From Indolivaga alginatilytica (GTDB lineage: Bacteria > Bacteroidota > Bacteroidia > Bacteroidales > Dysgonomonadaceae), in NCBI RefSeq assembly GCF_003201355.1, contig NZ_QICL01000033.1:1-46903 (forward strand): DNA of 46,903 nt, read 5' to 3'. The notes beneath the pieces were generated by a model. The model had not been told where the DNA came from. It did not search any database and worked only from the letters and a program-made list of their open reading frames with translations. A program made the position numbers and the translations under genes. Position 1 is the stretch's first letter; each line of letters starts with the position of its first letter. Positions 1,209 through 35,976 of the stretch are shown piece after piece.

Positions 1209-1223
1209 AACCTGTGTTTGAGA

Positions 1224-2503: not shown

Positions 2504-2534
2504 AACACCTGAAATTTAGAAATTCATGCAATAG

Positions 2535-3770: not shown

Positions 3771-3791
3771 ACCTTATTGTATTATGGGATT

Positions 3792-4856: not shown

Positions 4857-4873
4857 ATAGTTAAATTGGTTGG

Positions 4874-4900: not shown

Positions 4901-4922
4901 TGTTCTTGTTTTACAAAAATAA

Positions 4923-6146: not shown

Positions 6147-6496
6147 TCTTTCACAATTAAAACAGATTCTTATATTTAAATACGGATTCTTAGTGCACAT
6201 TTTTCTCCTTAGTCGATATTTTTCCTGAAATATTGGTGGCAACCGATATAGTTTGTGGATAAAATAGTTTTACTGATTTTGTCTTTATAAAACATACCTC
6301 GCAAGTAATCCTTTTTCTCTTTCTTTTGTCTATCTACACGCAACACAATTCACTAACTACTTATCTAATAAGGAAATAAACAGTGTACATGTTTTAGGTG
6401 ATGAGAGTTTAGGTAATTGTAAGTTCAGATGGCTTTAAAAAAAATCTCTTTTATTTTTGATATCTGAAATATTATCACTTATTTTGCTTATCTCAT

Positions 6497-6513
6497 AAAT
6501 GTATGAACATACA
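6497..6513. promoter_or_regulatory. Candidate GntR operator upstream of GH92
   Basis: TGTATGAACATACA (6500-6513) is a perfect inverted repeat (TGTATG/CATACA, 2-base centre). The 14 bases AAATGTATGAACAT (6497-6510) recur exactly at 22844-22857 between the GntR and mannose-6-phosphate isomerase genes, and a TAGAAT follows in both places. It lies 54 bases before the GH92 start codon. Confidence 0.6.
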
Positions 6514-6566
6514 TAGAATGTTTACTCATTATCTAAAACTATAAAATCATTACTAAAATAAATACT

Positions 6567-9311
6567 ATGAAAAAACAAGCATTACTATTACTATTATTTA
6601 TAGGATGCTGCTTAAATCTACTTGCAGGACCATACAACATTGCTCCCAAAGCAAAAATAAGTGCATCCTCAGAAAAAGATAGTAATTTCGCAGCAAATAA
6701 AGCGATTGATGGCATAATAAGTGTCGATAATCAAAACGAGTGGGTATCTTCAAGCAAACAAACTTCATGGGGTGCAATTGACTATCCCTGGATAAAATTA
6801 GAATGGGATGCCGCTCAGAGCATTAATAAAGTTATATTATATGACCGTCCGACTGCAGATAGCCATATAGCCGGAGGAACTTTACACTTTAGCGACGGAA
6901 CAAGCATATTTGTAAACCAAATTCCTAATAACGGTCATGCAAAAGCAATAGATTTTCCAACAAAAAAAGTGGAGTGGATAAAGTTTGAAGTAACCGACGG
7001 AGATGGACTCAATCTGGGTTTGTCTGAAATCGAGGTCTACCCATCACCTGAGAACTATACAGATTATGTGTCGAAGGTAGATCCTTATGTAGAATCTGCA
7101 CGTGGTCGCTATTTCTTCTTCATTACCGGCAATCAGCCTTTTGGGATGATTAGTGCAGCACCACTCACACGTAACAAGAACCAATACGGAGGCGGATATA
7201 ATTACAATTCGCTCGAAGTACTGGGATTTCCACAAATACACTGCTGGATGTTATCGGGTATAAGCCTTATGCCTACAACAGGAGCTATTAACCCTACTTT
7301 GGGTGAACACAGGTGGAAATCACAATTCTCGCATGATGGTGAGATAGTACAACCCGGATATCACAGGTTATTTTTAGATGATTATGGAATATGGGTTGAA
7401 CAAACAGCTACCGACAGAGTTAGTTTCTATAAACTTCGTTATACGAAAGATGCTGTTTCGAACTTACTACTTAATTTGGGTGGATATTTAGGTGAGACAA
7501 CGATGAACGATTGCAGAGTAACAAAAGTAAGCAATACTGAAATCGAAGGATCTGTAAATACAACAGGACGTTTTTGGGGCGGCCCCGATAATGTAAGAAT
7601 ATTTTTTACCATGCGTTTTGATAAACCATTTGAGCAATTGAACGGATGGGATGACAAAGAAGTATCCTCTAATATCTCTACACATAAAGGCGTGAATGAA
7701 AAAACGGCAAGAAATGGAGGAGAGAGCTACTACGAAGCTCCAACATCGGGTGTAAGTGCTATTTACAATGTAAAAGCCGGAGACGAAATACAGGTAAAAT
7801 TCTCAATATCATATACCAGCATCGAAAATGCTCGTCTTAATATGGAAAAAGATGGTAACCAATGGGACTTCGAAGCTGTAAAGAATGCTTCTCAAAAAGA
7901 ATGGAACGAATGGTTAGGGCGAATTGATGTGAAAGGTGGCAGTAATGAGCAACAAATTAAATTCTACACAGATATTTGGCATACTTTACTTGGACGTCAT
8001 AAACTGGACGACTATTCGGGTGATTATCCTGATTATACTCAAGGCAAAAGAGTCGGTAATGCAACAATTGGAGCACAGTTAAAAGTACGTACACTTCCTA
8101 AAAATGAAGATGGTTCTGTAAAGTTCCACATGTATAATTCAGATGCATTTTGGTTAACTCAATGGAATTTAAACATTCTTTGGGGGTTGGCATGGCCTGA
8201 AGTATTGGACGATTTTGCTGCATGCCTTGTTCAATATAACGATAATGGAGGACTGCTGCCTCGTGGTCCTAATGCAGGAGGTTATTCTTACATTATGACT
8301 AGTTGTCCTGCAACTAATCTTATTACCAGTGCTTATCAAAAAAACTTACTTACTAAGGTTGATACTGAAAAAGCTTACCAAGCTATGGTGAGTAATCACC
8401 GTCCGGGAGGAATGCTAGGTCCTGAAAAAGAAATTCAATACTACATCAACAATGGCTATTATCCTGGAAATGCAGGTATTACACTGGAAGCGGCATTCCA
8501 AGATTGGTCATTGGCTCAGATGGCCTACAAAATGAAAAAAAAGAAGGATGCTGAATATTATATGAAACGCTCGCAGGGATGGAGGAAATTGTATAATACT
8601 GATCTTGAACTGGTAATCCCTAAAGATGCCAAAGGGAAATGGTTGCACCACGATCCGTTAAGTAATCAAGGATGGATAGAAGCCAATGCATGGCAAGCCA
8701 CATGGTCTGTTTCGCACGAAATACCTGAACTGGCAAAATTAATGGGTGGCTATGATGCTCTTTGCAAGAAACTAAATTATGCTTTTGAACAATCTGATAA
8801 AGATGACTTTGTTTTTGGATATGGAAGCGGATATGTGAGTTATGCAAATCAACCGGGATGTTCCAATGCCCACGTATTTAATCTGGCAAAACAGCCTTGG
8901 TTATCGCAGTATTGGGTAAGAAAGGTAGGAGCACAAGCTTATGGAGCTATAACTCCCGACAGAGGCTATGGAGGTCATGATGAAGATCAAGGGCAAATGG
9001 GTGGGGTGAGTGCATTAATGGCACTCGGAATATTCAGCCTGGATGGTACGGGTTCTCAAAATCCTGCTTACCAAATAACAAGTCCTGTTTTTGATGAAAT
9101 AACAATTAAGCTAGATCCGAAATATTATTCCGGCAAAGAATTCAAAATAAAAACTCACAACAACTCGAAAGAAAACTGCTATATCCAGAAAGCAGAGCTC
9201 AATACTCAACCATTAAATAAGTATTGGTTTGGACATGACGTATTTGCAGCAGGTGGAAATCTGGAAATCTGGCTTGGAAATAAACCGAATAAGAGCTGGG
9301 GGGTAGAATAA
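6567..9311 (+). CDS. GH92 family alpha-mannosidase with N-terminal F5/8-type carbohydrate-binding domain
   Basis: A secreted exo-acting glycosidase expected to release mannose from alpha-mannosides such as N-glycans or yeast mannan, using calcium as GH92 enzymes do. A signal sequence occupies about residues 1-21; LFIGCC could serve as a lipobox. A discoidin/F5-8C-like beta-sandwich (about 22-158) is followed by the GH92 beta-sandwich and (alpha/alpha)6 barrel (about 172-870). The segment with HDEDQGQM near residue 804 matches the GH92 catalytic-base region, and WNEWLGRIDV and NNGYYPGNAG match other family blocks. The family usually shows a more canonical GNDDxGQM, so this is a divergent member whose linkage preference may differ. 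It is the only plus-strand enzyme gene of the locus, is followed by a strong terminator and carries the candidate GntR operator. Confidence 0.82.
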   Translation: MKKQALLLLLFIGCCLNLLAGPYNIAPKAKISASSEKDSNFAANKAIDGIISVDNQNEWVSSSKQTSWGAIDYPWIKLEWDAAQSINKVILYDRPTADSHIAGGTLHFSDGTSIFVNQIPNNGHAKAIDFPTKKVEWIKFEVTDGDGLNLGLSEIEVYPSPENYTDYVSKVDPYVESARGRYFFFITGNQPFGMISAAPLTRNKNQYGGGYNYNSLEVLGFPQIHCWMLSGISLMPTTGAINPTLGEHRWKSQFSHDGEIVQPGYHRLFLDDYGIWVEQTATDRVSFYKLRYTKDAVSNLLLNLGGYLGETTMNDCRVTKVSNTEIEGSVNTTGRFWGGPDNVRIFFTMRFDKPFEQLNGWDDKEVSSNISTHKGVNEKTARNGGESYYEAPTSGVSAIYNVKAGDEIQVKFSISYTSIENARLNMEKDGNQWDFEAVKNASQKEWNEWLGRIDVKGGSNEQQIKFYTDIWHTLLGRHKLDDYSGDYPDYTQGKRVGNATIGAQLKVRTLPKNEDGSVKFHMYNSDAFWLTQWNLNILWGLAWPEVLDDFAACLVQYNDNGGLLPRGPNAGGYSYIMTSCPATNLITSAYQKNLLTKVDTEKAYQAMVSNHRPGGMLGPEKEIQYYINNGYYPGNAGITLEAAFQDWSLAQMAYKMKKKKDAEYYMKRSQGWRKLYNTDLELVIPKDAKGKWLHHDPLSNQGWIEANAWQATWSVSHEIPELAKLMGGYDALCKKLNYAFEQSDKDDFVFGYGSGYVSYANQPGCSNAHVFNLAKQPWLSQYWVRKVGAQAYGAITPDRGYGGHDEDQGQMGGVSALMALGIFSLDGTGSQNPAYQITSPVFDEITIKLDPKYYSGKEFKIKTHNNSKENCYIQKAELNTQPLNKYWFGHDVFAAGGNLEIWLGNKPNKSWGVE

Positions 9312-9398
9312 TAAAAAGATACATCAATCTAATACTATCATTTTTATTTTGTTAAGTCTGTGACGCTTATTTTAAAGTCAACAATTCGCGAACAACTT

Positions 9399-9452
9399 TT
9401 TCAACAAAAAGCAAAGCATCTGAAAAATCAGATGCTTTGCTTTTTGTTGAAA
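9399..9452 (+). terminator. Long intrinsic terminator after GH92
   Basis: Perfect 25-bp arms (9399-9423 and 9428-9452) with a 4-base A loop; the core is GCAAAGCATCTGA/TCAGATGCTTTGC. A T run follows shortly after. It ends the GH92 transcript and, being symmetrical, can also protect against the opposite strand. Confidence 0.85.
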
Positions 9453-9480
9453 TAACTTTTTATATTCGGATATTTTTCTC

Positions 9481-9837
9481 TTAATAACATTTTCTCTCGA
9501 ATTCATTCCATTCAAATTCAATGGGTTCAGGGTATTTAAGGACTAACTCAACTTCGATTTTTTTTATAATATCTTCAAAACTTGAGTTATAGATCTCGAC
9601 AAAATTATCCATTTTATCGACCCACAACTTTTTCATTTTTTCTATTCCGTAATTATTGATAAGGAACTGTACAATATAAGCAGATTGATTGTATCTTATT
9701 TTATCATGCTGTTTATCGAAATGATTGACAAGTTAGTCTGCATTTATAAGTTTCTCATTTTGTATAAAGTAAATATATTTTTCTTCAAAAGAAGAATAAT
9801 CACATTCTGCATCAGGATCAGCATAGGTTGCTAATCC
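9481..9837 (-). pseudogene. Remnant of a secreted metallopeptidase-like (peptidase MA type) protein
   Basis: About 119 codons read through on the minus strand with an in-frame TAA at 9733-9735, bounded upstream by TAA (9838-9840) and no start. The order ADPDAECDYSSF, then SAYIVQFLINNYGIEKMKKL, then a final EIYNSSFEDIIKK resembles the C-terminal helical part of gluzincin/peptidase MA proteins (pattern S-x-x-x-V-x-F-L-I-x-x-Y-G-x-E-K). The HExxH catalytic part is absent. It lies between two terminators and is most likely a decayed gene fragment. Confidence 0.5.
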
Positions 9838-9876
9838 TTAATTTATATAGAGTTATCTTATCGTGTAGATACAAAA

Positions 9877-9905
9877 AAGAGTTCTGATTTAAAATCAGAA
9901 CTCTT
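9877..9905 (-). terminator. Terminator of the mannoside operon
   Basis: AAGAGTTCTGATTT (9877-9890) pairs with 9892-9905. Read on the minus strand the hairpin is followed by six T residues, and it sits 20 bases after the last operon gene. It is a typical intrinsic terminator. Confidence 0.82.
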
Positions 9906-9925
9906 CATATTTAGAAGTTTCAGCT

Positions 9926-11032
9926 TTATTCTTTTGTCATATTAGTAATAGGCATCCAGAAAAAGCGAGGTTTATAAACAGATGCTTTTACCCAAACCTT
10001 TTCCATATCGTATGTATTGACGTTATAACACATTAATACTTTATCGTTTTTAATGTATTGAGGATGTACCATTGTATTATAAGTCATCATGCTGTCTGCT
10101 TCATAGTTTGGTTCATTCACCGTATAGATAAGCTTCTCATTGCCAAAGGGGCCTTGCGGTTTATCGGAAGTAAATGAGTATATATCTTTTACGTTTTTGA
10201 AACGATCCTGAGTTACCAGAATATATTTGTCATGTAGTTTTACTACGTTGAACTGTTCCGAAACCGCTTGAGTTACCCCTCCGATCTTTTGCGATTTTTT
10301 TGCATCGGTTTGCCAGTTAGTTCCATCCCAGAACTCAAAATTAGCCAGAGCTTTGTTATCCACTACACAACGTGCGACATGTACATCTGCTGCAAATGCT
10401 TTGTTATCCGAAAGCGTTCCATAGACATACACATATTTACCATCTTCTAAAACTGCATGCCCGTAATGTACACCATTCTCATTTGCTGCCGGAAAATTTG
10501 TCTTGGTTAATACCTTCAACGTTTTAGCATCCAATGTAAAATAATCACAACGCTCATATTCAAAGCCAAACGGTCCGTTTCCTTGTTTGTAAAACTTAGA
10601 CATGAACAAGTATAATATTCCGTCTTTAACAAATCCATGCCCGGGCCAATACCATGTTGGACCTTTACCTGTTGAGTCTGCCTCTATGTATGATCTTGGT
10701 TCTTGAGGTGTTCCTTGAAAATAATTTTTTATTTCTTTATCATCAATAGTCGTAAAGACATTACCCATCATAAATGCCACCGGCTGTTGGCGCACATCAT
10801 CTACCACATCTCCAAAAAACGAATCGCCCCACATAAACATCGATCTGCCGTCTTTCAAATCTATCGATATGGCTCCGTCGGCACCAGTGACTCCACCACC
10901 CAACGGCGGCAGTAATCTTTCACAAAACACAGAATCCATTTCAACTGTTGTATCAATAGCTACTTCTTGTTTGGGACTATTACAACCGACTAACAGGCTC
11001 AGTCCCATTGCAAATACAAATACTTGTTTCAT
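9926..11032 (-). CDS. Lipoprotein with beta-propeller-like fold (DUF4185/DUF5005-like), possible glycoside hydrolase
   Basis: A 368-residue exported lipoprotein: signal peptide with lipobox ending LLVGC (Cys17). The body repeats sheet-forming segments typical of glycosidase-like propellers: GADGAISIDLKDGRSMFMWG, DGILYLFMSKFY, GKYVYVYGTLSD, DKYILVTQDRF. This resembles DUF4185/DUF5005 proteins, which are related in fold to GH43-type propellers. The function is unproven; a role as accessory glycosidase or glycan-binding protein for mannoside-rich glycans is inferred from its place as last gene of the operon. It starts 26 bases after the esterase stop. Confidence 0.65.
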   Translation of the reverse strand: MKQVFVFAMGLSLLVGCNSPKQEVAIDTTVEMDSVFCERLLPPLGGGVTGADGAISIDLKDGRSMFMWGDSFFGDVVDDVRQQPVAFMMGNVFTTIDDKEIKNYFQGTPQEPRSYIEADSTGKGPTWYWPGHGFVKDGILYLFMSKFYKQGNGPFGFEYERCDYFTLDAKTLKVLTKTNFPAANENGVHYGHAVLEDGKYVYVYGTLSDNKAFAADVHVARCVVDNKALANFEFWDGTNWQTDAKKSQKIGGVTQAVSEQFNVVKLHDKYILVTQDRFKNVKDIYSFTSDKPQGPFGNEKLIYTVNEPNYEADSMMTYNTMVHPQYIKNDKVLMCYNVNTYDMEKVWVKASVYKPRFFWMPITNMTKE

Positions 11033-11058
11033 AGTTACTTTATTTAGATTTATAAGTA

Positions 11059-13038
11059 TTAAAAATAGACAATATCAGGATCATATACCCTATCGTCAGT
11101 TATGCCTTTCCAATTATCCGATCTGTAAGGTAAAACAGGTAAGCTATTTTTTCCATAAAGATTTAACTCTCCCGGATTTTTAGACCATGCATAACGTACC
11201 GCCTGAGGATTCTGAACCTTCTCTGAATAAACAGTAATCAGATTTCCATCCTTTTCAGCTATAGCCGGATAGAATTGCTCATCTGCTCCTGCAATAGAGA
11301 ACCCCTTAATGAATTGTTGGTCATTCAGAATAATAAAATCGCTATCTAATTGAACACTTGCTTTACCTTCAGTAAACCCAACAGTCTTAATTCTCGGATA
11401 TTCTTTCTCTTTTAGAACTCCATAACTATCGGCTAATGCAAGTTCAGCCAAGCGAAGACCTACATCTTGTTTGTTTTTGGGATGTATATCTTTTTCTTCT
11501 CCCAAATCGATAGCTGTTGCCATTTTTACATGAGGCAGTTTTGTTGCAAGGTCTTGCGATTCCCGAAGTTCAGACCAGTCGTTATTATTCCCTGAGGTAT
11601 CGATAGAATCGTAATTAGCCAATTGCACAAAGTAAAATGGCATTTCGGGTATATTAAACTTCCTTCTCCAATCGGTAATCATTTCAGGAAAGAGATAACG
11701 ATACTCATAACCTCTACCTGCGTTAGATTCACCCTGATACCAGATCACACCTCTGATCTTTACATTTTCGGCTAAGGGATTAATCATCGAATTATACAAA
11801 ATTGCAGGATGCGAGAATGGGTTTACATTCACAATATGAGGTACAACGAAATTATCTTTCAAAGGTTCGTCTTTCCTGCAATACCACTGCCCGTTCAATA
11901 TAGGGGTAGCCCAAAAAGGATGGAAGCTGAAACCGCCATTCCCTTCTACATTCAACACACGTACGACCAATACGTTGTCTTTCTTTTTTAATATATTTTG
12001 AGATACGTAGTAATCGCTCCAGTTTTTATCTCCAAAGACTTCTCCCACTGTTACACCATTTACCCAAGTGATATTATAATCTTTGATATAGCTCAAAAAA
12101 AGATGGAAATCTCCCTCTTTATAGTCATCGGGCAAATCGAAAGTGGTTTGAAACCAGACCACTCCATCAAACTTATCTAAACCTATATTTGCGTTCTCCC
12201 AATATCCTTCAGAGGGCTTGTATGGAGTCCAATCTGAAAAATCTGTCGATGGCAGATACCATTTTTCATCAAAGCCTTTTCCTGTCAGATAATATTCTTT
12301 GTCCCAAGTCTTTCTTAATTCTTTGAAATCGGCTTCTATCTGTTTGCGACTTTTATTGTGAGATGTAAACTCCTTATACTCTTTTTCGAACTGGGGGAAT
12401 TTCTTAATGGCATCGACAGACATCCACGGCTCTAAGCCTGTTCCGCTCCAATCGGAACAAATAATACCAATCGGCACATCAACCTCTTTTCTTATATTCT
12501 TCGCAAAGAAATAAGCTGTAGCAGAACATTGCCGTAAATCATTACCCAGAGCTTGTTTCCAATGCCCTCCTTCTACCAAATCCTTTGCAGGAATCATATC
12601 GATACTGTTCGGGACAGAATAGAAACGCAAATCCGGGTCTTTGGCATTTTTGATTTCTTCGTCACACCATGGAAAATTTGCCATTTGAAATTCCATATTC
12701 GACTGACCGGAACATAGCCAGACATCACCTGCTACCACCTCTTTCAGTTGAACGCTATCTTCTCCCGAATAAACAGATATAGTATAATTTTTATTTAGAG
12801 CAAATTCGGGCAGTGTTATCAACCACGAAGAATCTTTTTCGATTTTTGTCTGGAAACCAGCTCCTTCGAAATTGATTTCTACATTGTTTCCGGGTATGCC
12901 CTTTCCATATATCTTAACGGGAGCATCCCGTTGCACAATCATATAATCTGAAAACAGGGGAGATAATCTCAGATTGGCAGCAGTTACGGATATCGAAATA
13001 AATATGATATAAACTGATAGTATGATTTTTTCTTTCAT
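11059..13038 (-). CDS. Sialate O-acetylesterase-type SGNH carbohydrate esterase
   Basis: A 659-residue secreted esterase of the SASA/SGNH family that removes O-acetyl groups from glycans (sialic acid, or xylan/mannan-type acetyl groups in related families). It has a signal peptide (1-20), an N-terminal beta domain, then CSGQSNMEFQM with the catalytic Ser near 113. A galactose-binding-like insert with WFQTTFDLPDDY follows at about 250-360, then IWYQGESNAGRG near 434 and a DIHP motif near 514 that supplies Asp/His. That order (block I, inserted beta domain, remaining blocks) is normal for this family. It lies in the mannoside operon between SusD and the propeller-like lipoprotein, and may deacetylate glycans so that GH92 can proceed. 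Confidence 0.85.
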   Translation of the reverse strand: MKEKIILSVYIIFISISVTAANLRLSPLFSDYMIVQRDAPVKIYGKGIPGNNVEINFEGAGFQTKIEKDSSWLITLPEFALNKNYTISVYSGEDSVQLKEVVAGDVWLCSGQSNMEFQMANFPWCDEEIKNAKDPDLRFYSVPNSIDMIPAKDLVEGGHWKQALGNDLRQCSATAYFFAKNIRKEVDVPIGIICSDWSGTGLEPWMSVDAIKKFPQFEKEYKEFTSHNKSRKQIEADFKELRKTWDKEYYLTGKGFDEKWYLPSTDFSDWTPYKPSEGYWENANIGLDKFDGVVWFQTTFDLPDDYKEGDFHLFLSYIKDYNITWVNGVTVGEVFGDKNWSDYYVSQNILKKKDNVLVVRVLNVEGNGGFSFHPFWATPILNGQWYCRKDEPLKDNFVVPHIVNVNPFSHPAILYNSMINPLAENVKIRGVIWYQGESNAGRGYEYRYLFPEMITDWRRKFNIPEMPFYFVQLANYDSIDTSGNNNDWSELRESQDLATKLPHVKMATAIDLGEEKDIHPKNKQDVGLRLAELALADSYGVLKEKEYPRIKTVGFTEGKASVQLDSDFIILNDQQFIKGFSIAGADEQFYPAIAEKDGNLITVYSEKVQNPQAVRYAWSKNPGELNLYGKNSLPVLPYRSDNWKGITDDRVYDPDIVYF

Positions 13039-13090
13039 CTTATCTATACTGATTTTTACAATTCAGGTTTAAATCTGATGCCACTTATAG

Positions 13091-13125
13091 GAGACTTACA
13101 AACAAATTATTTATCTGCAAGTCTC
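13091..13125 (-). promoter_or_regulatory. Weak hairpin between SusD and the esterase gene
   Basis: GAGACTT (13091-13097) and AAGTCTC (13119-13125) are 7-bp inverted arms around an AT-rich loop in the 109-base gap. It may lower transcription downstream of SusD or stabilise its mRNA. The stem is short, so this is tentative. Confidence 0.3.
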
Positions 13126-13147
13126 ATATTTTGACATCTTCCAGTCA

Positions 13148-14644
13148 TTAATACCCTTCATTCTGAGTAAGAACTCCGTGCGAAAGTTCTCTGTCATACT
13201 GAGGTATCGGGAAAAGAAAATGAATACTCTTGGGGGTAGCTTCCGGTTTTGCTGTCTTTATTATATCTATAAACTCTTGCGGTGTACACATTCGGGTAAG
13301 ATCAAACCAACGACGTCCTTCCATCGAAAACTCAAGACGGTATTCGTTTAACAAGGCTTTCTTAAACCCTGCATAGTCTGACGGCAGTGCATTTGAAGAT
13401 AATCCTGCTCTGTCTCTTACTACTTTGACAGCAGCTAGAGCTTCGGCATTAGGAGCATGGTTTATCTCGTTCAATGCCTCGGCTTTTATCAAATACATTT
13501 CGGCTGTACGTATTGCAGGGAATATGGCATCAGAAGTATTTCCTTTTGGTTCAGCCTGACGATCCCAGTATTTAAAGAAATAAGGCTTTTTGAAGGTTTC
13601 GGTAGAGCCATCATCATATACAAAGCTTTTTCTAAGGGTTACATCTTTACGTTTGTCACTGTTAGAAAATGTACTGTACAAATTTTCGGTAGCCGATTCC
13701 CATCCTTGTGCATTGTCGGGACCTCCTTTACTTGTATCGAGCTTAGGCAACAGTCTTACCAGGAATTGACCGCCTTTCCAACCTGCACTCAAAGACCCGT
13801 TAAAATTTACGCCATAAATAATTTCAGAATTGAATCGGTTCGCAATCTTAAACAAATCGCCATACTCCGTTAACATAGGAAAGTGAGGAATAACCTCATC
13901 AGCTTTTTTAGCAGCTAACTGAAAATAGGTATTGTCTTTATGTAAAGCTCCATAAGTCAAATATACACGTGCAAGCAAAGCACTTGCTGATAAAGTATAT
14001 GGATGCCCACCTCCCATTCTTCCGGCATAGGTAAGATCTTGTTCGGCAATTTTCAAATCAGCAATAATAAACTCATACACCTCATCCCTCGGCGATCTCG
14101 GGATATTTTCTTCCTCGCTGGTTTCAACGTCTTTTTTGTGAAGTGGCACATCTCCAAACATACGTACCAAATCGAAATACATCATCGCTCTGAAAAATCG
14201 TGCTTCTGCCAAAAGATGTTTTTTCAGATTTGCATCCATTTCGATCGGCGGAACTCTGTCCAGAACCACATTACAGGCTTTGATTGTTTGGTAGAAATCT
14301 CGCCATAAACGTTGCACAGGCAGATTATACTGATCGATTTGCATATTATCTACCGATTGATAATCGACACTCGCCAGATTGGTCGTAGCATTGTCTGCAA
14401 ATAAATCCTGCAACACCCAATAATCGTTGTAAAATACTCCGCCATAATTGCTATCCCATAATCCGCCCGGAGCATATCCGATAATCAGAAAATCGTAGAT
14501 GGCATTGGTTGCAGATATGGCATGCTGCTGAGTCTTGTAATAACTTTCGGTAGTGATATTACCTTTGGGTTCTTCATCGAGGAAACCCGAACAAGAACTT
14601 AATGTGCCTATCAATAAGGCTATTGTAAATAGTATCTTTTTCAT
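13148..14644 (-). CDS. susD: SusD/RagB-type outer-membrane glycan-binding lipoprotein (mannoside locus)
   Basis: A 498-residue surface lipoprotein that binds glycans and acts as the lid of the SusC transporter. The signal peptide ends LSSC with lipidated Cys18, followed by SGFLDEEPKG, the usual SusD N-terminal signature. TPR helices occupy the middle (LLAEARFFRAMMYFDLVRMFGDVPL, shown here as the core ARFFRAMMYFDL). The C-terminal SusD_RagB segment ends RAEALNE-type/EFSMEGRRWFDL and FPIPQYDREL. It follows SusC after 134 bases that contain a 57-bp palindromic repeat. Confidence 0.93.
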   Translation of the reverse strand: MKKILFTIALLIGTLSSCSGFLDEEPKGNITTESYYKTQQHAISATNAIYDFLIIGYAPGGLWDSNYGGVFYNDYWVLQDLFADNATTNLASVDYQSVDNMQIDQYNLPVQRLWRDFYQTIKACNVVLDRVPPIEMDANLKKHLLAEARFFRAMMYFDLVRMFGDVPLHKKDVETSEEENIPRSPRDEVYEFIIADLKIAEQDLTYAGRMGGGHPYTLSASALLARVYLTYGALHKDNTYFQLAAKKADEVIPHFPMLTEYGDLFKIANRFNSEIIYGVNFNGSLSAGWKGGQFLVRLLPKLDTSKGGPDNAQGWESATENLYSTFSNSDKRKDVTLRKSFVYDDGSTETFKKPYFFKYWDRQAEPKGNTSDAIFPAIRTAEMYLIKAEALNEINHAPNAEALAAVKVVRDRAGLSSNALPSDYAGFKKALLNEYRLEFSMEGRRWFDLTRMCTPQEFIDIIKTAKPEATPKSIHFLFPIPQYDRELSHGVLTQNEGY

Positions 14645-14695
14645 AATTCTTTCCTATTAAGTAATTGAAAGTATTTAATGATAAATTCTTTATTT

Positions 14696-14752
14696 GTAGG
14701 GGCAGACCTATGTGTCTGTCCTCTGTGGGTGAACACATAGGTTCACCCCTAC
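14696..14752. repeat. 57-bp palindromic repeat, copy 1
   Basis: It begins GTAGGGGCAGACCTATGTGT and ends ACATAGGTTCACCCCTAC, so the two ends form an imperfect inverted repeat. It is 53/57 identical to the reverse complement of 35916-35972. It lies between susC and susD, where the hairpin would form in the operon mRNA. Confidence 0.85.
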
Positions 14753-14778
14753 ACCCTGTAATAAATAGCCCTGCAAGC

Positions 14779-17700
14779 TTAAAAATTAATTCTTGCTCCG
14801 AATTCGAATGATTTTGCCATCGGATAAGATCCGTAATCGGCTCCCATAGACAGGTTGTTGTTCGAGAAACGGCTTACTTCAGGGTCATATCCTGTATAGT
14901 TGGTCAATGTATATATATTCTGAACACTCACGTACACAGATAATCCTTCCATAAACAGTTTACGAGCCAATGGCTTAGAAAAATCATAAGTTAAAGCTAC
15001 ATTCTTAACACGCAGGTAAGAACCGTCTTCTACGTAATGATCAGAAAGTACATTTCCGTGAGATTTCATTGTCGCACGAGGATACTTATTAGTAGGATTA
15101 TCAGGTGTCCAACGATTTAATACTGCCTTAGAATTGTTCTTGTATCCGTCTAAACTCTCTAATGCAAACTTATTGAAGTTGACTATTTCGTTTCCTACTA
15201 CTCCCTGAAGAAATACAGAAAGATTTAATGCCGAATTATTAGGTAAATTGTATTTAAATGAATTCGTAAATCCAAAAGAAAAATCAGGGTTAGCATTGCC
15301 TAGTTCAAATAAATCATCTTCATTTAAAACATTGTCTGAAGTACGGTTTACATATTTACGATCGCCCACCTGTAAGGTTTTTCCGGGGAAAAATGGGATT
15401 TTACTTGGGTCTTCACCTTTTTGAACAATACCATCAGTTTTATATCCATAAATTGTACCGATAGGTTTACCTTTTGTTATTTTTGTCCAATAAGTAATAC
15501 CCAAAATAGGATCTCCTACCAGATTTTCTTTAGAATTAGCTAAATCAGTTATTTTATTCCTATTGAATCCCAATGTAAAATCAGAAGTCCATGTAAAACG
15601 CTGATTGGTAACAGGAACAAGATTCAAGGTGAATTCATAACCACTATTCTCCATACTGCCTACATTTTTCATGCTCATATCATATCCACTATGTAATAGA
15701 TCGGGCATGTAAAGCAATAGATCTTTTGTGTTTTTGTGGTAGTAATCGGCAGTGAATGCGATACGACCATCAAAGAAACCAATGTCAAATCCCAGATTCA
15801 TTTGAGAAGTAGTCTCCCATTTCAGATCTTTATTTGCTCGTGTAAAAGGAACTTTTCCTTTTATAATCTGAGAGTTACCTATATATGCTTCTGTAGAATA
15901 TAATAGTCCTTGAGAACTGTAAGGAGGTATACCCTCGTTACCTACAAGACCATAACTGGCTCTTACTTTCAAGTTATTTATAAGACTGATATCTTTCATG
16001 AATTTCTCTTCGGATGCTCTCCATGCAACAGCTGCCGATGGGAATGTTCCGAATTTATTATCTTTTCCGAATTTAGATGATCCGTCGATACGACCTGTTA
16101 ATGTCAAAAGATACCTATTATCATAGTTATAATTGATACGAGCCAGATACGAAAGCATTTGCCATTGAGATATTCCTGATATTGCCAACTGTTTCAATGC
16201 TGCTGCACCTAAATCGTGAAACCCGAGTGTTCCATCTTCAAAATCGGCTACGGCAACATTCGAATATTCGGATGTGAATGCTTGCGCTGTCATCCCTGCC
16301 AGAACATTGAACGAATGTTTATCGAACGATTTCAGATAAGTGGCTGTATTTTCTGACACCCATGTATACCCGTCTCTGTTAGCTATACTTGCATATCCGT
16401 TATTAGACTCAGCTCTTTTCAGCTCTTTAGATGCAAAAGCCTGATCTTTAACATTAAAATAATCTATACCAAAGGTACTTTTAAGAATCAGATCTTTGAA
16501 TGGTCTAACCTCCACATAGGCATTAGTCAGGAGTTTTAAAGATGTTGTTTTATTCATTGCTTCCAATGCATCTTGCACCGGATTTCCTACATTAGAGGTA
16601 GGCGAAGTATTGTTTTCGTAAGTAAATCTGCCGTTGCTGTCTCTTACAGGCAGAGCCGGATTCATTTCCAAAGCCCACGAAGTAACACTCGAAGCAAAAG
16701 CTCCTTCCGAATTAGTCACAACTCCGTTCGAACGGCTATAAGTCGTATTGGCATTCAATCCAACCTTTAGATACTTTCCTAATTTTTGTTCAAAGTTAAA
16801 ACGCAATGTTCCTTTGTCATAATTCGATCCTAAGATAATACCGTCTTGCTTAAGTATATTTGCCGAAGTAAAGTAGGTATTGGTTTCACCTCCACCCGAG
16901 ACAGAAACATCGTAGCTTTGCATAGGTGCTGTGCGGAATATCTCATCTTGCCAGTTTGTATTTTTCTTAGCCAGATTATTCAAATCCGCAAAAACAGGTC
17001 TGCGATCTACTCCGTCATTGTCCGCAGCCTCATTGGCCAGTTCTGCCAATTGTACGGAATTCAGCATATCCATTTTTTTACTCACTTGCTGCAACATATA
17101 TCTCATGCTAAGAGCAACTTTGGCTTTTCCGCTTTTTCCTTGTTTAGTTGTGATCAAGATTACTCCATTTGCTCCACGTGCTCCATAAATGGAAGTTGCC
17201 GATGCGTCTTTAAGTACTTCCAGCGATTCTATATCATTGGGGTTGATACTTGTTAATGGATTCGAGGCAGGATTTTTCAGTCCCCCAGCACTAGTTGCAT
17301 AGGGATCACTTATAATAGGGACACCATCAACTACATACAATGGTTCGTTGGTTCCATTGATGGAGCTTGTACCTCTGATACGGATTGAAGTAGCTCCTCC
17401 CGGTTGACCTGAAGTATTTAAAACTACTACACCAGCAGCTCTTCCTTGAAGCCCCTGATCTAAAGATGTGGTTGACGTGGTTGCCAATTCACTCGATTTA
17501 ACGCTGGAGATAGAAGCCGTTAAGTCACTTCTTCTTTGTACTCCATAGCCTATAACTACAATTTCATCTACTTCATTAATGTCTTCTTCCATCACTATTT
17601 TAAGTGTTGCTGACGACGTTATTTTTTGTTCGATCGATTTATAGCCGATATAGGAAATCTGTAACGTTTTTCCTATCTGTGTGTTTATTCTGAAATTTCC

Positions 17701-17901
17701 ATCTATATCACTCACAGTACCTTCTCTGGTATTCAATACCGATATAGAAGCTCCTATAATTGCCTCTCCGTCTGTATCAACTATAACTCCACTGATATTT
17801 ATTGTTTTATCTTGCGCGACCAGAATTGTATTAGATGATAAGATGATAGCAAATAGTAAGAACAGAAATTTGATATTCTTTGATAATTGATTGTTTTTCA
17901 T
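14779..17901 (-). CDS. susC: SusC/RagA-type TonB-dependent outer-membrane transporter (mannoside locus)
   Basis: A 1040-residue outer-membrane receptor that imports oligosaccharides with energy from TonB. Signal peptide about 1-29, then a carboxypeptidase-regulatory-like domain (ISGVIVDTDGEAIIGASISV, about 33-105). A TonB box-like segment with VVIGYGVQRRSDLT lies near 115, followed by the plug domain (RIRGTSSINGTNEPLYVVDG; SIYGARGANGVILITTKQG) and a 22-stranded barrel ending in an aromatic C-terminus (FEFGARINF). Its length and domain order are normal for the family. It starts 18 bases after the preceding lipoprotein gene. Confidence 0.95.
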   Translation of the reverse strand: MKNNQLSKNIKFLFLLFAIILSSNTILVAQDKTINISGVIVDTDGEAIIGASISVLNTREGTVSDIDGNFRINTQIGKTLQISYIGYKSIEQKITSSATLKIVMEEDINEVDEIVVIGYGVQRRSDLTASISSVKSSELATTSTTSLDQGLQGRAAGVVVLNTSGQPGGATSIRIRGTSSINGTNEPLYVVDGVPIISDPYATSAGGLKNPASNPLTSINPNDIESLEVLKDASATSIYGARGANGVILITTKQGKSGKAKVALSMRYMLQQVSKKMDMLNSVQLAELANEAADNDGVDRRPVFADLNNLAKKNTNWQDEIFRTAPMQSYDVSVSGGGETNTYFTSANILKQDGIILGSNYDKGTLRFNFEQKLGKYLKVGLNANTTYSRSNGVVTNSEGAFASSVTSWALEMNPALPVRDSNGRFTYENNTSPTSNVGNPVQDALEAMNKTTSLKLLTNAYVEVRPFKDLILKSTFGIDYFNVKDQAFASKELKRAESNNGYASIANRDGYTWVSENTATYLKSFDKHSFNVLAGMTAQAFTSEYSNVAVADFEDGTLGFHDLGAAALKQLAISGISQWQMLSYLARINYNYDNRYLLTLTGRIDGSSKFGKDNKFGTFPSAAVAWRASEEKFMKDISLINNLKVRASYGLVGNEGIPPYSSQGLLYSTEAYIGNSQIIKGKVPFTRANKDLKWETTSQMNLGFDIGFFDGRIAFTADYYHKNTKDLLLYMPDLLHSGYDMSMKNVGSMENSGYEFTLNLVPVTNQRFTWTSDFTLGFNRNKITDLANSKENLVGDPILGITYWTKITKGKPIGTIYGYKTDGIVQKGEDPSKIPFFPGKTLQVGDRKYVNRTSDNVLNEDDLFELGNANPDFSFGFTNSFKYNLPNNSALNLSVFLQGVVGNEIVNFNKFALESLDGYKNNSKAVLNRWTPDNPTNKYPRATMKSHGNVLSDHYVEDGSYLRVKNVALTYDFSKPLARKLFMEGLSVYVSVQNIYTLTNYTGYDPEVSRFSNNNLSMGADYGSYPMAKSFEFGARINF

Positions 17902-17919
17902 GTCTTTTCTGTTTTTAGA

Positions 17920-18786
17920 TTAATATGTCCCCGGTTTACAAGCTTCTACTTTGTAACTGTTAGGATCTGACCCTCTGTAAGGTTTAAAATCAGCTGACTT
18001 AGGTTCAGCAATATATGTCTCTTGAATAGGTTCTTGGTTACTGAATCCCGGTAAGAAAGATAAGTCCTGACGGCTTTCCAAAACTAATTCTTCATCCTGT
18101 AGTCTAATTACTTTATATTTAGTAACGACTGCATTTGACGGACTAAAGATGTTATATTTAATCATGTAGATCGAATCTATTTTCTCGTCCGTACCAATCA
18201 TTTTCCATCCGCAATATGAGTCAAGTGTTTCAAGAGCAGAAGTCGATAAAGTTGTTCCCCAATCCAGTTCCCAACTCCAATCCTCATTAAACCGATACAC
18301 GTCATCCTTCATATAAGCTTCTGCGTATTCTTCTTTTTGGATAATTTGAGAGGCTAATTTCCAATCATATTTCTGTAAGCGATACAATTGGGTAATGTTC
18401 ACACTAACGATTACATCGGAAGCGTCCAAACGAGCTCCATCAGCCCCTACCCCATAAAAAGAATAGACAACAACCCCTTTTTCATCTTCGGGAACTACCT
18501 CTTCTTTGAAAGTGTAAGGAAATTGCATTTCTGCAACATTTAAGGTTTTATGATACGTCTCAACCTTTTTTCCGCTGATTGATTTTTCTACGATTATTTT
18601 CTGAAAGCTTTCTTTGCGGCTGAGTGTTATATCAACGGAGAACTCTTCATTTACTTTTGCTGTAACCTTGGTTGTACTGAGATTAAGCATCTGTGTGTCT
18701 TGTTCATTATCATTATCGCATGAAACATTCAGTAAGATGAAACTGAAGCATGATAAGATGAACATACTTAATGTTTTAATTTTCAT
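17920..18786 (-). CDS. Surface lipoprotein with Ig-like and lipocalin-like domains, possible glycan-binding protein
   Basis: A 288-residue lipoprotein: signal peptide with Cys23 followed by DNDNEQD, an acidic surface-export signal used by Bacteroidota. Residues about 33-135 look like an Ig-type beta-sandwich (STTKVTAKVNEEFSVDITL). Residues about 140-265 look like a lipocalin-like (DUF5004-type) beta-barrel: YDWKLASQI, RFNEDWSWELDWG, CGWKMIGTDEKID, LQDEELVLES. I infer a SusE/F-like binding role from its place 18 bases before susC; no enzyme motif is visible. It may instead be a structural part of the SusCD complex. Confidence 0.65.
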   Translation of the reverse strand: MKIKTLSMFILSCFSFILLNVSCDNDNEQDTQMLNLSTTKVTAKVNEEFSVDITLSRKESFQKIIVEKSISGKKVETYHKTLNVAEMQFPYTFKEEVVPEDEKGVVVYSFYGVGADGARLDASDVIVSVNITQLYRLQKYDWKLASQIIQKEEYAEAYMKDDVYRFNEDWSWELDWGTTLSTSALETLDSYCGWKMIGTDEKIDSIYMIKYNIFSPSNAVVTKYKVIRLQDEELVLESRQDLSFLPGFSNQEPIQETYIAEPKSADFKPYRGSDPNSYKVEACKPGTY

Positions 18787-18804
18787 AGATTTATTATATT
18801 AAAG

Positions 18805-19905
18805 TTACTCTTTGTCCAACTGCTGCAATGCGAATGCATATGCACCATACATGACTGCCCGGTTGGTTCCTATTTGAGTTATAAGAACCCCTGCTTGTTT
18901 TTTGTTGTCATAGTTTATATACTCATCACTTTGAGGAACTTTCACTTTACATGATTTATTTTTTAGAAAATCCTCTTTTTCGGATGAGTCCATCAGATTA
19001 TAAATATCCATTTCCATACGCGGGAATACGGCTCCATTCAACATGGATGTATTTTGTCTCAATTCTTTGATTATAGCAGGTAAAATGTATTTTGATGCAC
19101 CTGTTAATCCTCCTCCTATAACTAAAAGACCATCTACCATAGTCAAAGCAGCGGCTAACGCATCGCCTGTCATCTCTCCTAATTCTTCGAAGCTGGCAAT
19201 AGCTGCTTCTTTATTACCTTCTAACTGACCTTCTGCAATGTCGAAAATATCTTTAGGCGTTAGGTTCGAAGTATCTGTGCCTGTCAATTTGCCGTACACT
19301 CTTTTTATGGCTCTGATGCTTACACTCTCTTCGATAATCAGGTCGGTATATTTTTTATTTCTTAAACACCACAGATCGCCGCCGCAACCATTATCGCCAG
19401 CAAGTAATATGTTGTCAATTACTACTCCTGCTCCAAATCCTGTGCCCAATGTTATGCCCAACAGATTTGTATATCGTTTGGGATTGTTGACATCCGCCAG
19501 CCATTTATTAACCATAGGTAATGCACCGTATAAGGCTTCACCGTATGCAAACAAGTTCCCGTCATTGTTGATGTACACGGGTATACCGAATCTTTTTTGC
19601 AGAAACGGTCCCAGAGCCACACCGCCGCGAAAGGCTTTAAGATTAGGAAGGTCGCCTATAATCCCATTTTTATAATCGGCAGGACCCGGAAAAGCAAAAC
19701 TGATTGCATGAGGATTTGTCGGCAAATAGCTTTTTATCTTGTCAAAACCTTCAGCTATCCTGTTCAGGCACTCATCCAGATTATCGGCAATAGCAGGCAA
19801 GGTCAAAGGCTCTACAATTTCATTATATCCTTGAACTGCTGAAAATACAAAGTTTGTACCTCCTGCATCGAGGGTCATTACTATGCGGTTGTCGTTATCA
19901 TACAT
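18805..19905 (-). CDS. ROK-family sugar kinase (probable mannose/hexose kinase)
   Basis: A 366-residue cytoplasmic kinase expected to phosphorylate mannose (or glucose/fructose) with ATP at C6, feeding the neighbouring isomerase. The ATP-binding loop is TLDAGGTNFVFSA (about 11-23). INNDGNLFAYGEAL (about 118-131) matches the catalytic DGN motif, LLGITLGTGFGAG is the second phosphate loop and LLVIGGGLTGAS is the adenosine motif. The usual ROK zinc site (CxCGxxGCxE) is reduced to GCGGDLWC, so metal binding may differ. It starts 4 bases after the permease stop, so the two are likely cotranslated. Mannose as substrate is inferred from GH92, the permease and ManA. Confidence 0.87.
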   Translation of the reverse strand: MYDNDNRIVMTLDAGGTNFVFSAVQGYNEIVEPLTLPAIADNLDECLNRIAEGFDKIKSYLPTNPHAISFAFPGPADYKNGIIGDLPNLKAFRGGVALGPFLQKRFGIPVYINNDGNLFAYGEALYGALPMVNKWLADVNNPKRYTNLLGITLGTGFGAGVVIDNILLAGDNGCGGDLWCLRNKKYTDLIIEESVSIRAIKRVYGKLTGTDTSNLTPKDIFDIAEGQLEGNKEAAIASFEELGEMTGDALAAALTMVDGLLVIGGGLTGASKYILPAIIKELRQNTSMLNGAVFPRMEMDIYNLMDSSEKEDFLKNKSCKVKVPQSDEYINYDNKKQAGVLITQIGTNRAVMYGAYAFALQQLDKE

Positions 19906-19909
19906 ATCT

Positions 19910-21064
19910 TTACTTTTTAGAGAATTTGAGAGATAATAAAAGAATGTAAATCACGCAAAGCAGAAGCAAACCAAAACCGGCTGCCAAGCCCATATTTTTC
20001 GATAATAATCCGGCAATAGGTGTTATTATCGCACCACCTGCTACTCCCATTATCATGAGAGATGAAATTTCATTCGTTTGTTGAGGTTTATATTGAAGTG
20101 CAACAGAAAATATAATAGAGAATACGTTTGCACATGTAAACCCGATAAGGGCTACAGACAGAAATAGCAACCATTGCTCTACTGCAAAAAAGATTATCGC
20201 AAAAGCAACAATAGCAACAATCATATTGATTCTTAAAAAGACAGCAGGCTTACATTTCATTAAAATAAAAGAACCGAGAAATGCACCCAGTGTTCTTGCT
20301 GCAAAATACAAACTCGAACCTAAAGCAGCATCGTCTGTTGTCATACCTAAGCGTTGCATCAAAAGTTGAGGAGTATTTGTATTCATACAAACATCTATAC
20401 CCACAATAAATACAATACCCAGAAATAGTTGTAATATCAGATTGTCTTTCAACAGGGTAAGAGTCGATCCGAAAGTGGTCTGATTATTCTCTCTTTCTTC
20501 ATCCGCTTTGATCGGGGTGATGTACAGCCACATAAATGCAAGAAGCGAAACGGCTACAAAGACTACGAATATGAGACGCCAGTCGCCGTATTGTTTGGCT
20601 GCCACGCTTGCAATAATAGGCCCTACGAATGACGCTATTGCTTTTACAAACTGACCGAATGTGAGTGTACTTGCCAATTTTTCGCCACTGACAATACTTG
20701 CGACTAATGGATTGAGCGATACTTGTAATATTGTATTTCCTATCCCTAAAAGGGCGAATGCAATAATTACAGCGTAAAAATTATAGAATAAGTAAGGCAG
20801 TAATAATGATAACAACGATATAATTATTGCAATGAGAACTGTTTTCTTCCGGCCTATGCGGTTCATCAACATTCCTGTAGGGATAGAGAATATTGCAAAC
20901 CAGAGGAAAACCATCATCGGGATGATACTTGCCGTGAGATCATCCAAAGAAAAGTCTTGCCTGATGTAATTGGTCGAAACCCCTACAACATCTACAATTC
21001 CCATTACAAAGAAGCTCAGCATAACAGGAATGAATACTTTTAAGCTATTGGATTTGTTATTCAT
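19910..21064 (-). CDS. MFS sugar permease (FucP/GlcP-like)
   Basis: A permease of about 384 residues with 12 hydrophobic segments that imports a hexose, probably mannose, across the inner membrane with protons. A typical MFS loop motif, GMLMNRIGRKKTVLI, follows helix 2, and a central basic/acidic loop (about 185-205) separates the two halves. The frame can open with a TTG at 21088 that overlaps the upstream gene. I prefer the ATG at 21064 (MNNKSNSLKVF) because it starts just before the first helix and leaves a 20-base gap with normal leader. Operon position between ManA and ROK kinase supports mannose uptake. Confidence 0.87.
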   Translation of the reverse strand: MNNKSNSLKVFIPVMLSFFVMGIVDVVGVSTNYIRQDFSLDDLTASIIPMMVFLWFAIFSIPTGMLMNRIGRKKTVLIAIIISLLSLLLPYLFYNFYAVIIAFALLGIGNTILQVSLNPLVASIVSGEKLASTLTFGQFVKAIASFVGPIIASVAAKQYGDWRLIFVVFVAVSLLAFMWLYITPIKADEERENNQTTFGSTLTLLKDNLILQLFLGIVFIVGIDVCMNTNTPQLLMQRLGMTTDDAALGSSLYFAARTLGAFLGSFILMKCKPAVFLRINMIVAIVAFAIIFFAVEQWLLFLSVALIGFTCANVFSIIFSVALQYKPQQTNEISSLMIMGVAGGAIITPIAGLLSKNMGLAAGFGLLLLCVIYILLLSLKFSKK

Positions 21065-21084
21065 AGTATTAGATTTTCTAGATT

Positions 21085-22815
21085 TCAAAAGCGTACGTTT
21101 GCTTTAATGGTAATGCATTCTTTTCCTTCGGATTTTCCATAAGGAGCAATAGAATACTTTCCGATTGACGCCGGAATAATAAACGTTTCAGCATAATGGA
21201 CTACAAAGGGTTCAAATTTGTTATCCGGACTTTCAACAATTACTTCTTCGCCTTCCAATAAGTTAAGTACATTCACACTGTTGTTCGTATTATGTACTAC
21301 TTTCGTGCAGAAACGGTGTCTGCGTGTTTCAATAAATTCATTGGGATGAAGACCTGTTTTTTCTTCTATCCAACCTTCGCCTTCTGCAACAACCGAGAAA
21401 GTATTGACCAGATTGGCATAAGTATAATCTGTATCTCTACTCCAATCGATAACTTCTTTACCTCTCTCTACATTTATTGGACGAGGTTTACCATCGAGCC
21501 CTAAGCGTTCCCAATCCCACAGTTTGAAAGTAAATAGATTAGGTGTAGAGCTTATCTCGAGGACTACGCCCTCCGAACCCGAACAGTGGATAGTTCCTCC
21601 GGGAATAAGGAAATGATCGTGTTTTTTTGCAGGTATTTTATTCACATATTTATCTGCATCAAATATAATTTCGCCACGCTCAGCCCTTTGCAGGTCATTA
21701 ATCATTTCATCTTGATCGATACCGTTTTTCAAGCCTAAATATACTGTTGCACCTTCTTTAACATCAACCATATAATAGCTTTCGTCCTGAGTATAGAACA
21801 TACCGAAACTATCGCGGATAAATTGCACTGTCGGATGCACTTGCAAACTGAGGTTTCCGCCACCAATAGTGTCAAGGAAATCGAATCGTATAGGAAATTC
21901 TTTTCCAAAACGTGATTCAACGGGTTCACCTAATAATTCACGGCTTTTCAGCAAAACCAAATTGATAGAAGGCATTTCGAATGAAGTACCATTCACATTC
22001 AGCAATAAGCTATTTTCTTCGGGGACACAATCAAAACACCATCCAAAATTGATTCGATCCTTATCTAAGCCACAAACTTCCTTCATCCATTGTCCACCCC
22101 ATGGCGCAGGATCAAAGAAAGGTACAACACGGAAAGGCCTTTCTATTGTTCTTTGAATACCATCCAAGAAAGTAGCCTTGTCTATCATTTTAGGACTTCC
22201 CTGAATATGCGTATCTATCCAATAAGAGACTTTTTGGAAAAGGGAATCTTTGTGACGATCCAATATTTTCCAGTCATTGAAATAGCCTCTTTTATATTGT
22301 ATAGAAACAGGCTCTTTGCGATCATCGATACCCAATGCCGATACTTCCTGGCAGCGAAAACGTTGGATTATTTCCCAGCGAGCCATATCTATATATATAA
22401 TGCATGCCGATTCGGGCACAACCAATGAAGAACCGCTGCCGATAACAATAACTGGGGTTTTACTACCGATGATCTCCTGTTTTGCTTTTTCCAATTTCCC
22501 TTTATCGAAATAATCGATAATCGATAGGTTGGTTACATACCCGAAAAGAACATCTTCCGTCATAAAGCGTTCTGTCATCTTCGATACTTCCGATTCGGGT
22601 TTAAACATATCTCTTGTATTATATAAGAGAGCAGGAGCAACTTCGTTGATTTTAGAGAAGATCTCTTCCTCTATTACACCAGAGTATAGCTCTATGGCTA
22701 TTGTGGGATAAGTTTTTATTAGCTCTTTTAAGTGGCACAGGATATCGTGCCATCCATTAATTAGTGTTCCATCCACCTTAGTCGATGGAAATTTTTCATA
22801 ATTAGATTTTCTCAT
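21085..22815 (-). CDS. manA: Class I mannose-6-phosphate isomerase with extra N-terminal region
   Basis: It converts mannose 6-phosphate to fructose 6-phosphate, linking released mannose to glycolysis. The zinc-dependent cupin core spans about residues 215-576: DPAPWGGQWM near 236, LQVHP near 323 (metal-binding Gln and His), IPGGTIHCSGSEG near 405 (His), and LEISSTPN. A usual short class I enzyme is about 320 residues; this one has about 210 extra at the N-terminus. That region looks like an alpha/beta fold with PVIVIGSGSSLVV but no Walker A motif. Longer ManA proteins of this kind exist in Bacteroidota. It is the first gene of the operon and faces the GntR gene. Confidence 0.88.
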   Translation of the reverse strand: MRKSNYEKFPSTKVDGTLINGWHDILCHLKELIKTYPTIAIELYSGVIEEEIFSKINEVAPALLYNTRDMFKPESEVSKMTERFMTEDVLFGYVTNLSIIDYFDKGKLEKAKQEIIGSKTPVIVIGSGSSLVVPESACIIYIDMARWEIIQRFRCQEVSALGIDDRKEPVSIQYKRGYFNDWKILDRHKDSLFQKVSYWIDTHIQGSPKMIDKATFLDGIQRTIERPFRVVPFFDPAPWGGQWMKEVCGLDKDRINFGWCFDCVPEENSLLLNVNGTSFEMPSINLVLLKSRELLGEPVESRFGKEFPIRFDFLDTIGGGNLSLQVHPTVQFIRDSFGMFYTQDESYYMVDVKEGATVYLGLKNGIDQDEMINDLQRAERGEIIFDADKYVNKIPAKKHDHFLIPGGTIHCSGSEGVVLEISSTPNLFTFKLWDWERLGLDGKPRPINVERGKEVIDWSRDTDYTYANLVNTFSVVAEGEGWIEEKTGLHPNEFIETRRHRFCTKVVHNTNNSVNVLNLLEGEEVIVESPDNKFEPFVVHYAETFIIPASIGKYSIAPYGKSEGKECITIKANVRF

Positions 22816-22843
22816 TTCTTAGTATATAAGTTTTACAATAGAC

Positions 22844-22868
22844 AAATGTATGAACATTTAGAATATGT
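22844..22868. promoter_or_regulatory. Candidate GntR operator in the manA/gntR intergenic region
   Basis: AAATGTATGAACAT (22844-22857) is identical to 6497-6510 upstream of GH92; TAGAATATGT follows. It lies just downstream of the predicted manA -7 box (22870-22877), overlapping the expected transcription start, so bound repressor would block the operon. Confidence 0.6.
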
Positions 22869-22869
22869 A

Positions 22870-22898
22870 CAAATATATTAATTATTTTTATTATCAAA
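22870..22898 (-). promoter_or_regulatory. Predicted manA operon promoter
   Basis: On the minus strand, TTTG (22895-22898), 17 bases, then TATATTTG (22870-22877) match the Bacteroidota -33 TTTG / -7 TAnnTTTG pattern. Spacing is slightly short. The start codon is about 55 bases downstream. Confidence 0.5.
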
Positions 22899-35972: not shown

Positions 35973-35976
35973 AAAC

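Follow-up and report, generated by a model that had tools for sequence, protein, structure and literature searches.

Putative ManR-type operators before a GH92 gene and a manA gene run in Indolivaga alginatilytica

RESULTS

Gene content of the region

The stretch of DNA analysed here (the window) comprises 46,903 nucleotides of Indolivaga alginatilytica (contig NZ_QICL01000033.1, assembly GCF_003201355.1). A gene for a GH92 family glycoside hydrolase, a putative alpha-mannosidase, lies on the plus strand at 6567..9311; its product matched PF07971 (E = 1.7e-116) and PF17678 (1.1e-48) and has an N-terminal DUF7402 domain (PF24135, 6.1e-32). On the minus strand is a run of eight genes, in the order manA (21085..22815), MFS transporter (19910..21088; PF07690), ROK-family sugar kinase (18805..19905; PF00480), a 288-aa protein (17920..18786), SusC-like TonB-dependent transporter (14779..17901; PF07715, PF13715), SusD-like lipoprotein (13148..14644; PF07980, PF14322), SASA-domain carbohydrate esterase (11059..13038; PF03629) and a DUF4185 protein (9926..11032; PF13810), the last gene of this presumed manA operon. 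The 288-aa protein gave no Pfam match and has relatives in the same gene run of three other loci (L097, L108 and L167).

The manA product is a mannose-6-phosphate isomerase-like protein. It found no match in a Pfam search; its residues 225-450 matched solved mannose-6-phosphate isomerases (1qwr, E = 4.7e-10; 1zx5, E = 1.2e-9), and ten relatives from other loci share 60-72% identity with it. A ∼220-residue N-terminal part, without a Pfam family, is kept in the ten aligned relatives. Next to manA, on the plus strand at 22954..23682, is a ManR-like regulator gene (gntR). Its product has the features of the HutC subfamily, an N-terminal GntR winged helix-turn-helix DNA-binding domain (PF00392, 2.7e-15) and a C-terminal UTRA effector domain (PF07702, 3.9e-27), and its best named match was from Dysgonomonas sp. 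Marseille-P4677 (82%).

Some further features were noted. A long inverted repeat at 9399-9452, between the convergent GH92 and DUF4185 gene ends, is perhaps a two-way terminator. Beside the GH92 gene, positions 110-5384 hold Toprim/zinc-ribbon primase-like, AAA ATPase, DUF1016/YhcG nuclease and integrase-like genes, a set that suggests a mobile element or what is left of one. A REP-like element, forming hairpins around CCTATGTGT/ACACATAGG, is present in two inverted copies that adjoin the two SusC genes (14700-14757 and 35917-35973); a 26-base form of its core occurred eight times in the assembly at up to three mismatches, 35920-35945 among them, and a 22-letter search for the core gave no match.

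A 14-bp sequence shared by two sites

The sequence AAATGTATGAACAT occurs on the plus strand at 6497-6510, before the GH92 gene (site 1), and at 22844-22857, between the regulator gene and the eight-gene run (site 2). A preliminary description of the window had pointed out this pair, and its coordinates were borne out; the two are the sole exact copies in the assembly (73 contigs, 5.12 Mb), with one-mismatch matches at two further places. The repeat is weak evidence by itself, since 65 different 14-mers are present more than once in the window, on either strand.

The same description had read site 1 as a perfect inverted repeat. TGTATG-AA-CATACA is present there; it is missing from site 2, which reads TGTATG-AA-CATTTA, and the point about which it is symmetric (6506/6507) is shifted by 2 bp from the axis of the ATGT-N4-ACAT arrangement conserved in other genomes (6504/6505), so the proposed axis was rejected. 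About the conserved axis, site 2 is more symmetric than site 1 (AAATGT-ATGA-ACATTT). TAGAAT was also found behind both 14-mers as described, at 6514-6519, 3 nt behind the 14-mer and on the gene side of the operator, and at 22859-22864, 1 nt behind it and on the promoter side for manA. Because both the offset and the side relative to the gene differ, TAGAAT was rejected as part of a single shared element and is taken to be incidental.

A conserved motif upstream of gntR

DNA upstream of gntR was compared across 80 named loci carrying the regulator (the best 80 of 93 relatives; L003 and L042 are one contig), 78 of which were usable, two having too little upstream DNA. The motif TATGTATGAACATA was present with at most two mismatches within 250 bp upstream of gntR at 65 of the 78 loci, the best match having no mismatch at 30, one at 22 and two at 13. 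At the 13 loci without such a site, the best match had three mismatches in five cases and four or more in eight. The same threshold was reached by 0.4% of 758 random 250-bp stretches and by 21 of 1820 Markov-shuffled stretches, the latter drawn from 91 upstream stretches of which five (L005, L006, L007, L008 and L010) came from the wrong side of gntR. These five fall outside the 78 loci; L006 and L007 have perfect motifs, the match in L008 has two mismatches, and those in L005 and L010 have five.

Contexts upstream of gntR in other Bacteroidota, 69 of them distinct, were used to build a matrix, with no window sequence included. Each of its 14 positions carries 0.83-2.37 bits and the flanks at most 0.52. 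The core is GT and AC separated by 4 nt, a nearly invariant TG standing midway between them, and among 70 sites with up to three mismatches the motif points one way in 37 and the other way in 33. In a scan of the window with this matrix, 6496-6513 ranked first (23.5 bits) and 22843-22860 second (18.0 bits); the third score was 14.1, and the best of 20 shuffled windows reached 14.5. At a threshold of 15 bits, 116 sites were found in the 1,485,447 bases of the loci and the window, and none in 438,787 bases of shuffled sequence. The two top-scoring sites are annotated here as putative ManR-type operators: operator 1, AATGTATGAACATA, at 6498..6511 on the plus strand, with one mismatch to the cross-genome consensus, and operator 2, AATGTATGAACATT when read on the plus strand, at 22845..22858 on the minus strand.

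According to PMC4494728, GT and AC are separated by 4 nt in most sites of the HutC subfamily, with the consensus GTMTAKAC. Both window sites, with GT-ATGA-AC, and the cross-genome matrix follow this spacing, and the central TG of the window sites differs from the TA of that consensus.

Three other groups of matches were seen. A weaker operator-like sequence on the minus strand at 22862-22879 (14.1, a score also reached in 2 of 20 shuffles of the window) lies partly over the manA −7 box and is possibly a second ManR site. In the more distant ManR-type loci L142 (2799-2816 and 3012-3029) and L104 (2733-2750), the motif has TATA at its centre (TATGTATATACATA or AATGTATATACATA), which is nearer the general HutC consensus. 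At four Bacteroides and Prevotella loci (L033, L034, L073 and L107), a site of at least 21 bits lies directly behind the gntR stop codon, near 10730-10755.

Position of the sites relative to predicted promoters

PMC7366714 describes the phylum's primary promoter as a TTTG around −33 together with TAnnTTTG at −7. Before the GH92 gene, a plus-strand TTTG (6456..6459) and TTATTTTG (6479..6486), one mismatch from TAnnTTTG, form a predicted promoter with the layout TTTG-N19-TTATTTTG-N11-operator. Before manA, the minus-strand TTTG (22895..22898) and TATATTTG (22870..22877), separated by a 17-nt spacer, give TTTG-N17-TATATTTG-N11-operator. Both window sites therefore stand 11 nt behind a predicted promoter of the TTTG/TAnnTTTG type. 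Taking the transcription start to be 4 nt behind the −7 box, each operator would occupy about +9 to +22 of the predicted GH92 or manA transcript. The preliminary description had placed site 2 over the expected manA start; it is indeed close to the predicted start, and lies just behind it. A promoter pair at 9-14 nt was found in 0.24% of 20,000 shuffled sequences and at 48 of 9130 intergenic position-strands, with tolerances that were set after the window sites had been seen.

A similar layout was common at gntR in other genomes. CAAAnnTA, the manA-side −7 box, was found on the gntR side of the motif at 59 of 70 gntR-upstream sites of the named loci, at a distance of 10-14 nt in all 59 and of 11-12 nt in 47. 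A site just behind a promoter fits repression through blocking of the polymerase. Among nine GH92-upstream sites elsewhere, the full −33/−7 pair was seen only in L038, and a −7-like box at 9-14 nt in six: at 10 nt in L038 (with the −33 TTTG), at 11 nt in L053 and L066, and at 14 nt in L050 and at the farther sites of L045 and L055. At the second site of L038, and at whichever site was nearer in L045 and L055, the box was 3 nt away. None of seven MFS-upstream sites had a box at 9-14 nt.

The motif at manA in other genomes

Where manA lies apart from gntR, it was found with its own site in L036, in L039, in the Dysgonomonas genome behind L031 and in the D. macrotermitis genome. L036 has sites both at the separate manA and by gntR. 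Several loci whose best match before gntR had four or more mismatches have a site elsewhere: just before the distant manA in L039; at the manA start in L069, where gntR and manA are neighbours and the site is beyond the 250 bp scanned; and before the MFS gene in L074. The L031 genome, also in this group, has a single WWGTATGAACAWW match, ∼10 nt before manA on the contig that carries gntR. The other four of these eight loci, L071, L072, L079 and L081, had no site of at least 15 bits in the locus stretch scanned, which nonetheless contains a manA-like gene in L071, L079 and L081.

In D. macrotermitis, a close GH92 relative (1730 bits) is part of the manA-like operon, whose site scores 27.3; gntR stands at the opposite end of the cluster, with a site scoring 23.5. 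Neither the regulator nor the long manA was found in two genomes of the same genus, G004 and G005. The sister genome G001 (L002, 763-1495), of the same genus and with a 95% identical gntR, has only an altered operator-like sequence. Near its gntR there is only a broken manA remnant, and a 41-bp piece ∼60 bp from this remnant matches window positions 6442-6482, before GH92. The sequence looks as if a single deletion of ∼15.8 kb had removed GH92 and the operon.

The link to GH92 genes

Sites of at least 15 bits were sought within 300 bp upstream of the lead genes of transcription units, gene starts in other loci being the first start codons of open frames. Such a site was present at 12 of 21 GH92 lead genes and at 12 of 311 other genes, at 39/56 for manA, 64/77 for GntR, 9/33 for SusC, 6/9 for MFS and 1/5 for ROK, where the labels GH92, SusC, MFS, ROK and manA denote phmmer homologs rather than orthologs; there was none for SusD (0/4), DUF4185 (0/1) or SASA (0/1). 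The preliminary description had proposed a search of this kind near manA and GH92 genes of related genomes. Six of the 12 GH92 cases adjoin gntR and six are separate second sites. Counting only separate second sites gave 6/21 for GH92 against 10/311 for other genes (P = 1.6e-4). With loci thinned to one per 85% gntR cluster (45 of the 80), GH92 genes had sites in 5/8 cases against 9/180 (P = 5e-5), and in 2/8 against 7/180 when gntR-adjacent sites were excluded (P = 0.049). Given these last counts, the independent link to GH92 is modest.

Within its own genome, the window's GH92 gene is the only one of nine with a near upstream site (at most two mismatches). The next closest case, with a weak score of 11.5, is ∼1.6 kb away from a GH92 domain of contig C1. 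Of 91 own-genome matches 37 were scored, and the context was inspected for the five best outside the window; three are within genes and two between genes, and one of the latter follows another GH92 gene instead of preceding it, ∼2 kb past the 3' end. With one of nine GH92 genes concerned, a genome-wide mannoside regulon was rejected, and the single regulon for mannoside use that had been suggested does not hold in that wider scope. A search for WATGTATGAACAWA in 61 genomes from the same genus, family and order gave 19 exact matches, in 16 genomes. Five are in gntR clusters and 14 elsewhere, against nine for a reversed control pattern; thus, stray copies exist.

DISCUSSION

Relation to known systems

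ManR (BT2103), a GntR-family regulator of Bacteroides thetaiotaomicron, was predicted by Ravcheev et al. (2013; PMC3878776) to control mannose and mannoside use, mannosidases and SusCD included, so the idea of a ManR-type regulon is already known. The operator sequence, its position and its reach are results of the present analysis, and the published ManR motif, given as a logo figure, may be the same. As in that regulon, genes assigned by family to mannose-6-phosphate isomerase, sugar kinase and transporter functions are linked, and a conserved operator-like motif stands before manA and before mannosidase/SusCD genes. Unlike the system described for BT2103, the present one is in another genus with another gene order, and its GH92 gene stands alone, with a putative operator to itself. 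The identity of the motifs and the orthology of the regulators are presumed. A proxy for ManR, L104 of B. faecis, has a 61% identical GntR protein, with sites before a manA-like gene and before a SusC gene (17.1). A literature search for a GntR-type mannoside regulator in Bacteroides gave only PMC3878776 among the papers listed, subscription papers being mostly outside its reach, and one for Dysgonomonas, mannose and GntR gave only a review on bifidobacteria.

NagR (YvoA) of Bacillus subtilis, as described in PMC4333415, likewise has HutC architecture, represses sugar-use genes and binds imperfect natural palindromes, but it serves the N-acetylglucosamine pathway, recognizes another operator sequence and belongs to another phylum.

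The preferred reading and its alternatives

We put at roughly 0.86 the probability that both 14-bp sequences are operators of the GntR/HutC regulator encoded at 22954-23682, acting as a ManR-like repressor of the manA run and GH92. The GntR operator common to GH92 and the manA operon, as put forward in the preliminary description, gains support from cross-genome footprinting, recurrence at GH92 genes, the 11-nt spacing and the GT-N4-AC core. A regulator dimer would sit on the pseudo-palindrome ATGT-N4-ACAT just behind both transcription starts, blocking RNA polymerase at the eight-gene manA-MFS-ROK-X-SusC-SusD-SASA-DUF4185 run and at the single GH92 gene. On mannoside breakdown the UTRA domain would take up an effector and the regulator would let go of the DNA, turning on uptake, phosphorylation, isomerisation and GH92 trimming together; judging from NagR and its response to amino-sugar phosphates, the most likely effector is mannose-6-phosphate or mannose. 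The conservation of the motif, its association with gntR, manA and GH92 and the promoter-like geometry can be read directly from the DNA; we further infer that the regulator binds, that it represses and does not activate, which effector it answers to, and that the eight genes share a single transcript. Counting against this reading are the 13 of 78 loci that lack a site of at most two mismatches before gntR, the manA-like genes of L071, L079 and L081 with no site of 15 bits nearby, the modest GH92 link after thinning, the mismatch in the GH92 −7 box, the mixed geometry at GH92 and MFS sites elsewhere, and the altered sequence in G001.

One alternative is that the manA site alone acts as an operator, the GH92 14-mer being a chance repeat in AT-rich DNA. 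The many recurrent 14-mers in the window, the stray WATGTATGAACAWA matches away from gntR clusters (14, against 9 for the control) and the few separate GH92 sites after thinning (2/8) all leave room for this. However, the GH92 site, at 23.5, scores above the manA site on an independent matrix, both sites have an equal 11-nt offset behind a promoter-like pair, and sites stand before GH92 genes in other genomes, which makes a chance repeat improbable. Many Bacteroidota sugar operons need activators, which counts in favour of the regulator binding both sites as an activator, or with mixed effect, instead of as a simple repressor. The position of the manA-side −7 box 10-14 nt off at 59 of 70 gntR-upstream sites, which puts the site behind the promoter, fits blocking, and we regard activation as distinctly improbable.

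A third possibility is that the motif is a site for a Crp-like global sugar regulator of the BT4338 type (wwwTATGTTnTAnAACATAwww) that activates both units. TATGT and ACATA half-sites are common to the two motifs, going by PMC3878776, but the gap between them is 4 nt here against 6 nt in the Crp-like motif. The window has six matches to the Crp-like motif at up to three mismatches, where seven are expected by chance, and these six include neither site; moreover, the sites are behind the −7 boxes, not in front of them, and associated with gntR and manA. The sites do not conform to TATGTTnTAnAACATA with its 6-nt spacing, so membership of the BT4338 regulon was discarded, and we consider this explanation extremely unlikely.

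Scope and implications

Beyond the ManR-like repressor of the window, we think it somewhat probable that the sites belong to a Bacteroidota-wide ManR repressor system, found across Bacteroidales, Sphingobacterium, Draconibacterium and Maribellus. Its operator would be characteristically asymmetric, with a near-invariant ATGA centre, used in either orientation and always set shortly behind the manA promoter, at an almost constant distance. Despite gene rearrangement, control of GH92 would have been kept, with GH92 inside the manA run in two other Dysgonomonas genomes and stand-alone, with its own promoter-operator geometry, here. For ManR, a predicted regulator, this would supply a concrete operator seen in several orders of the phylum, its sequence, spacing and targets all defined. 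The arrangement suggests that a mannosidase gene outside an operon can stay under the operon's switch, and it may provide a compact model for designing repressible promoters in Bacteroidota.
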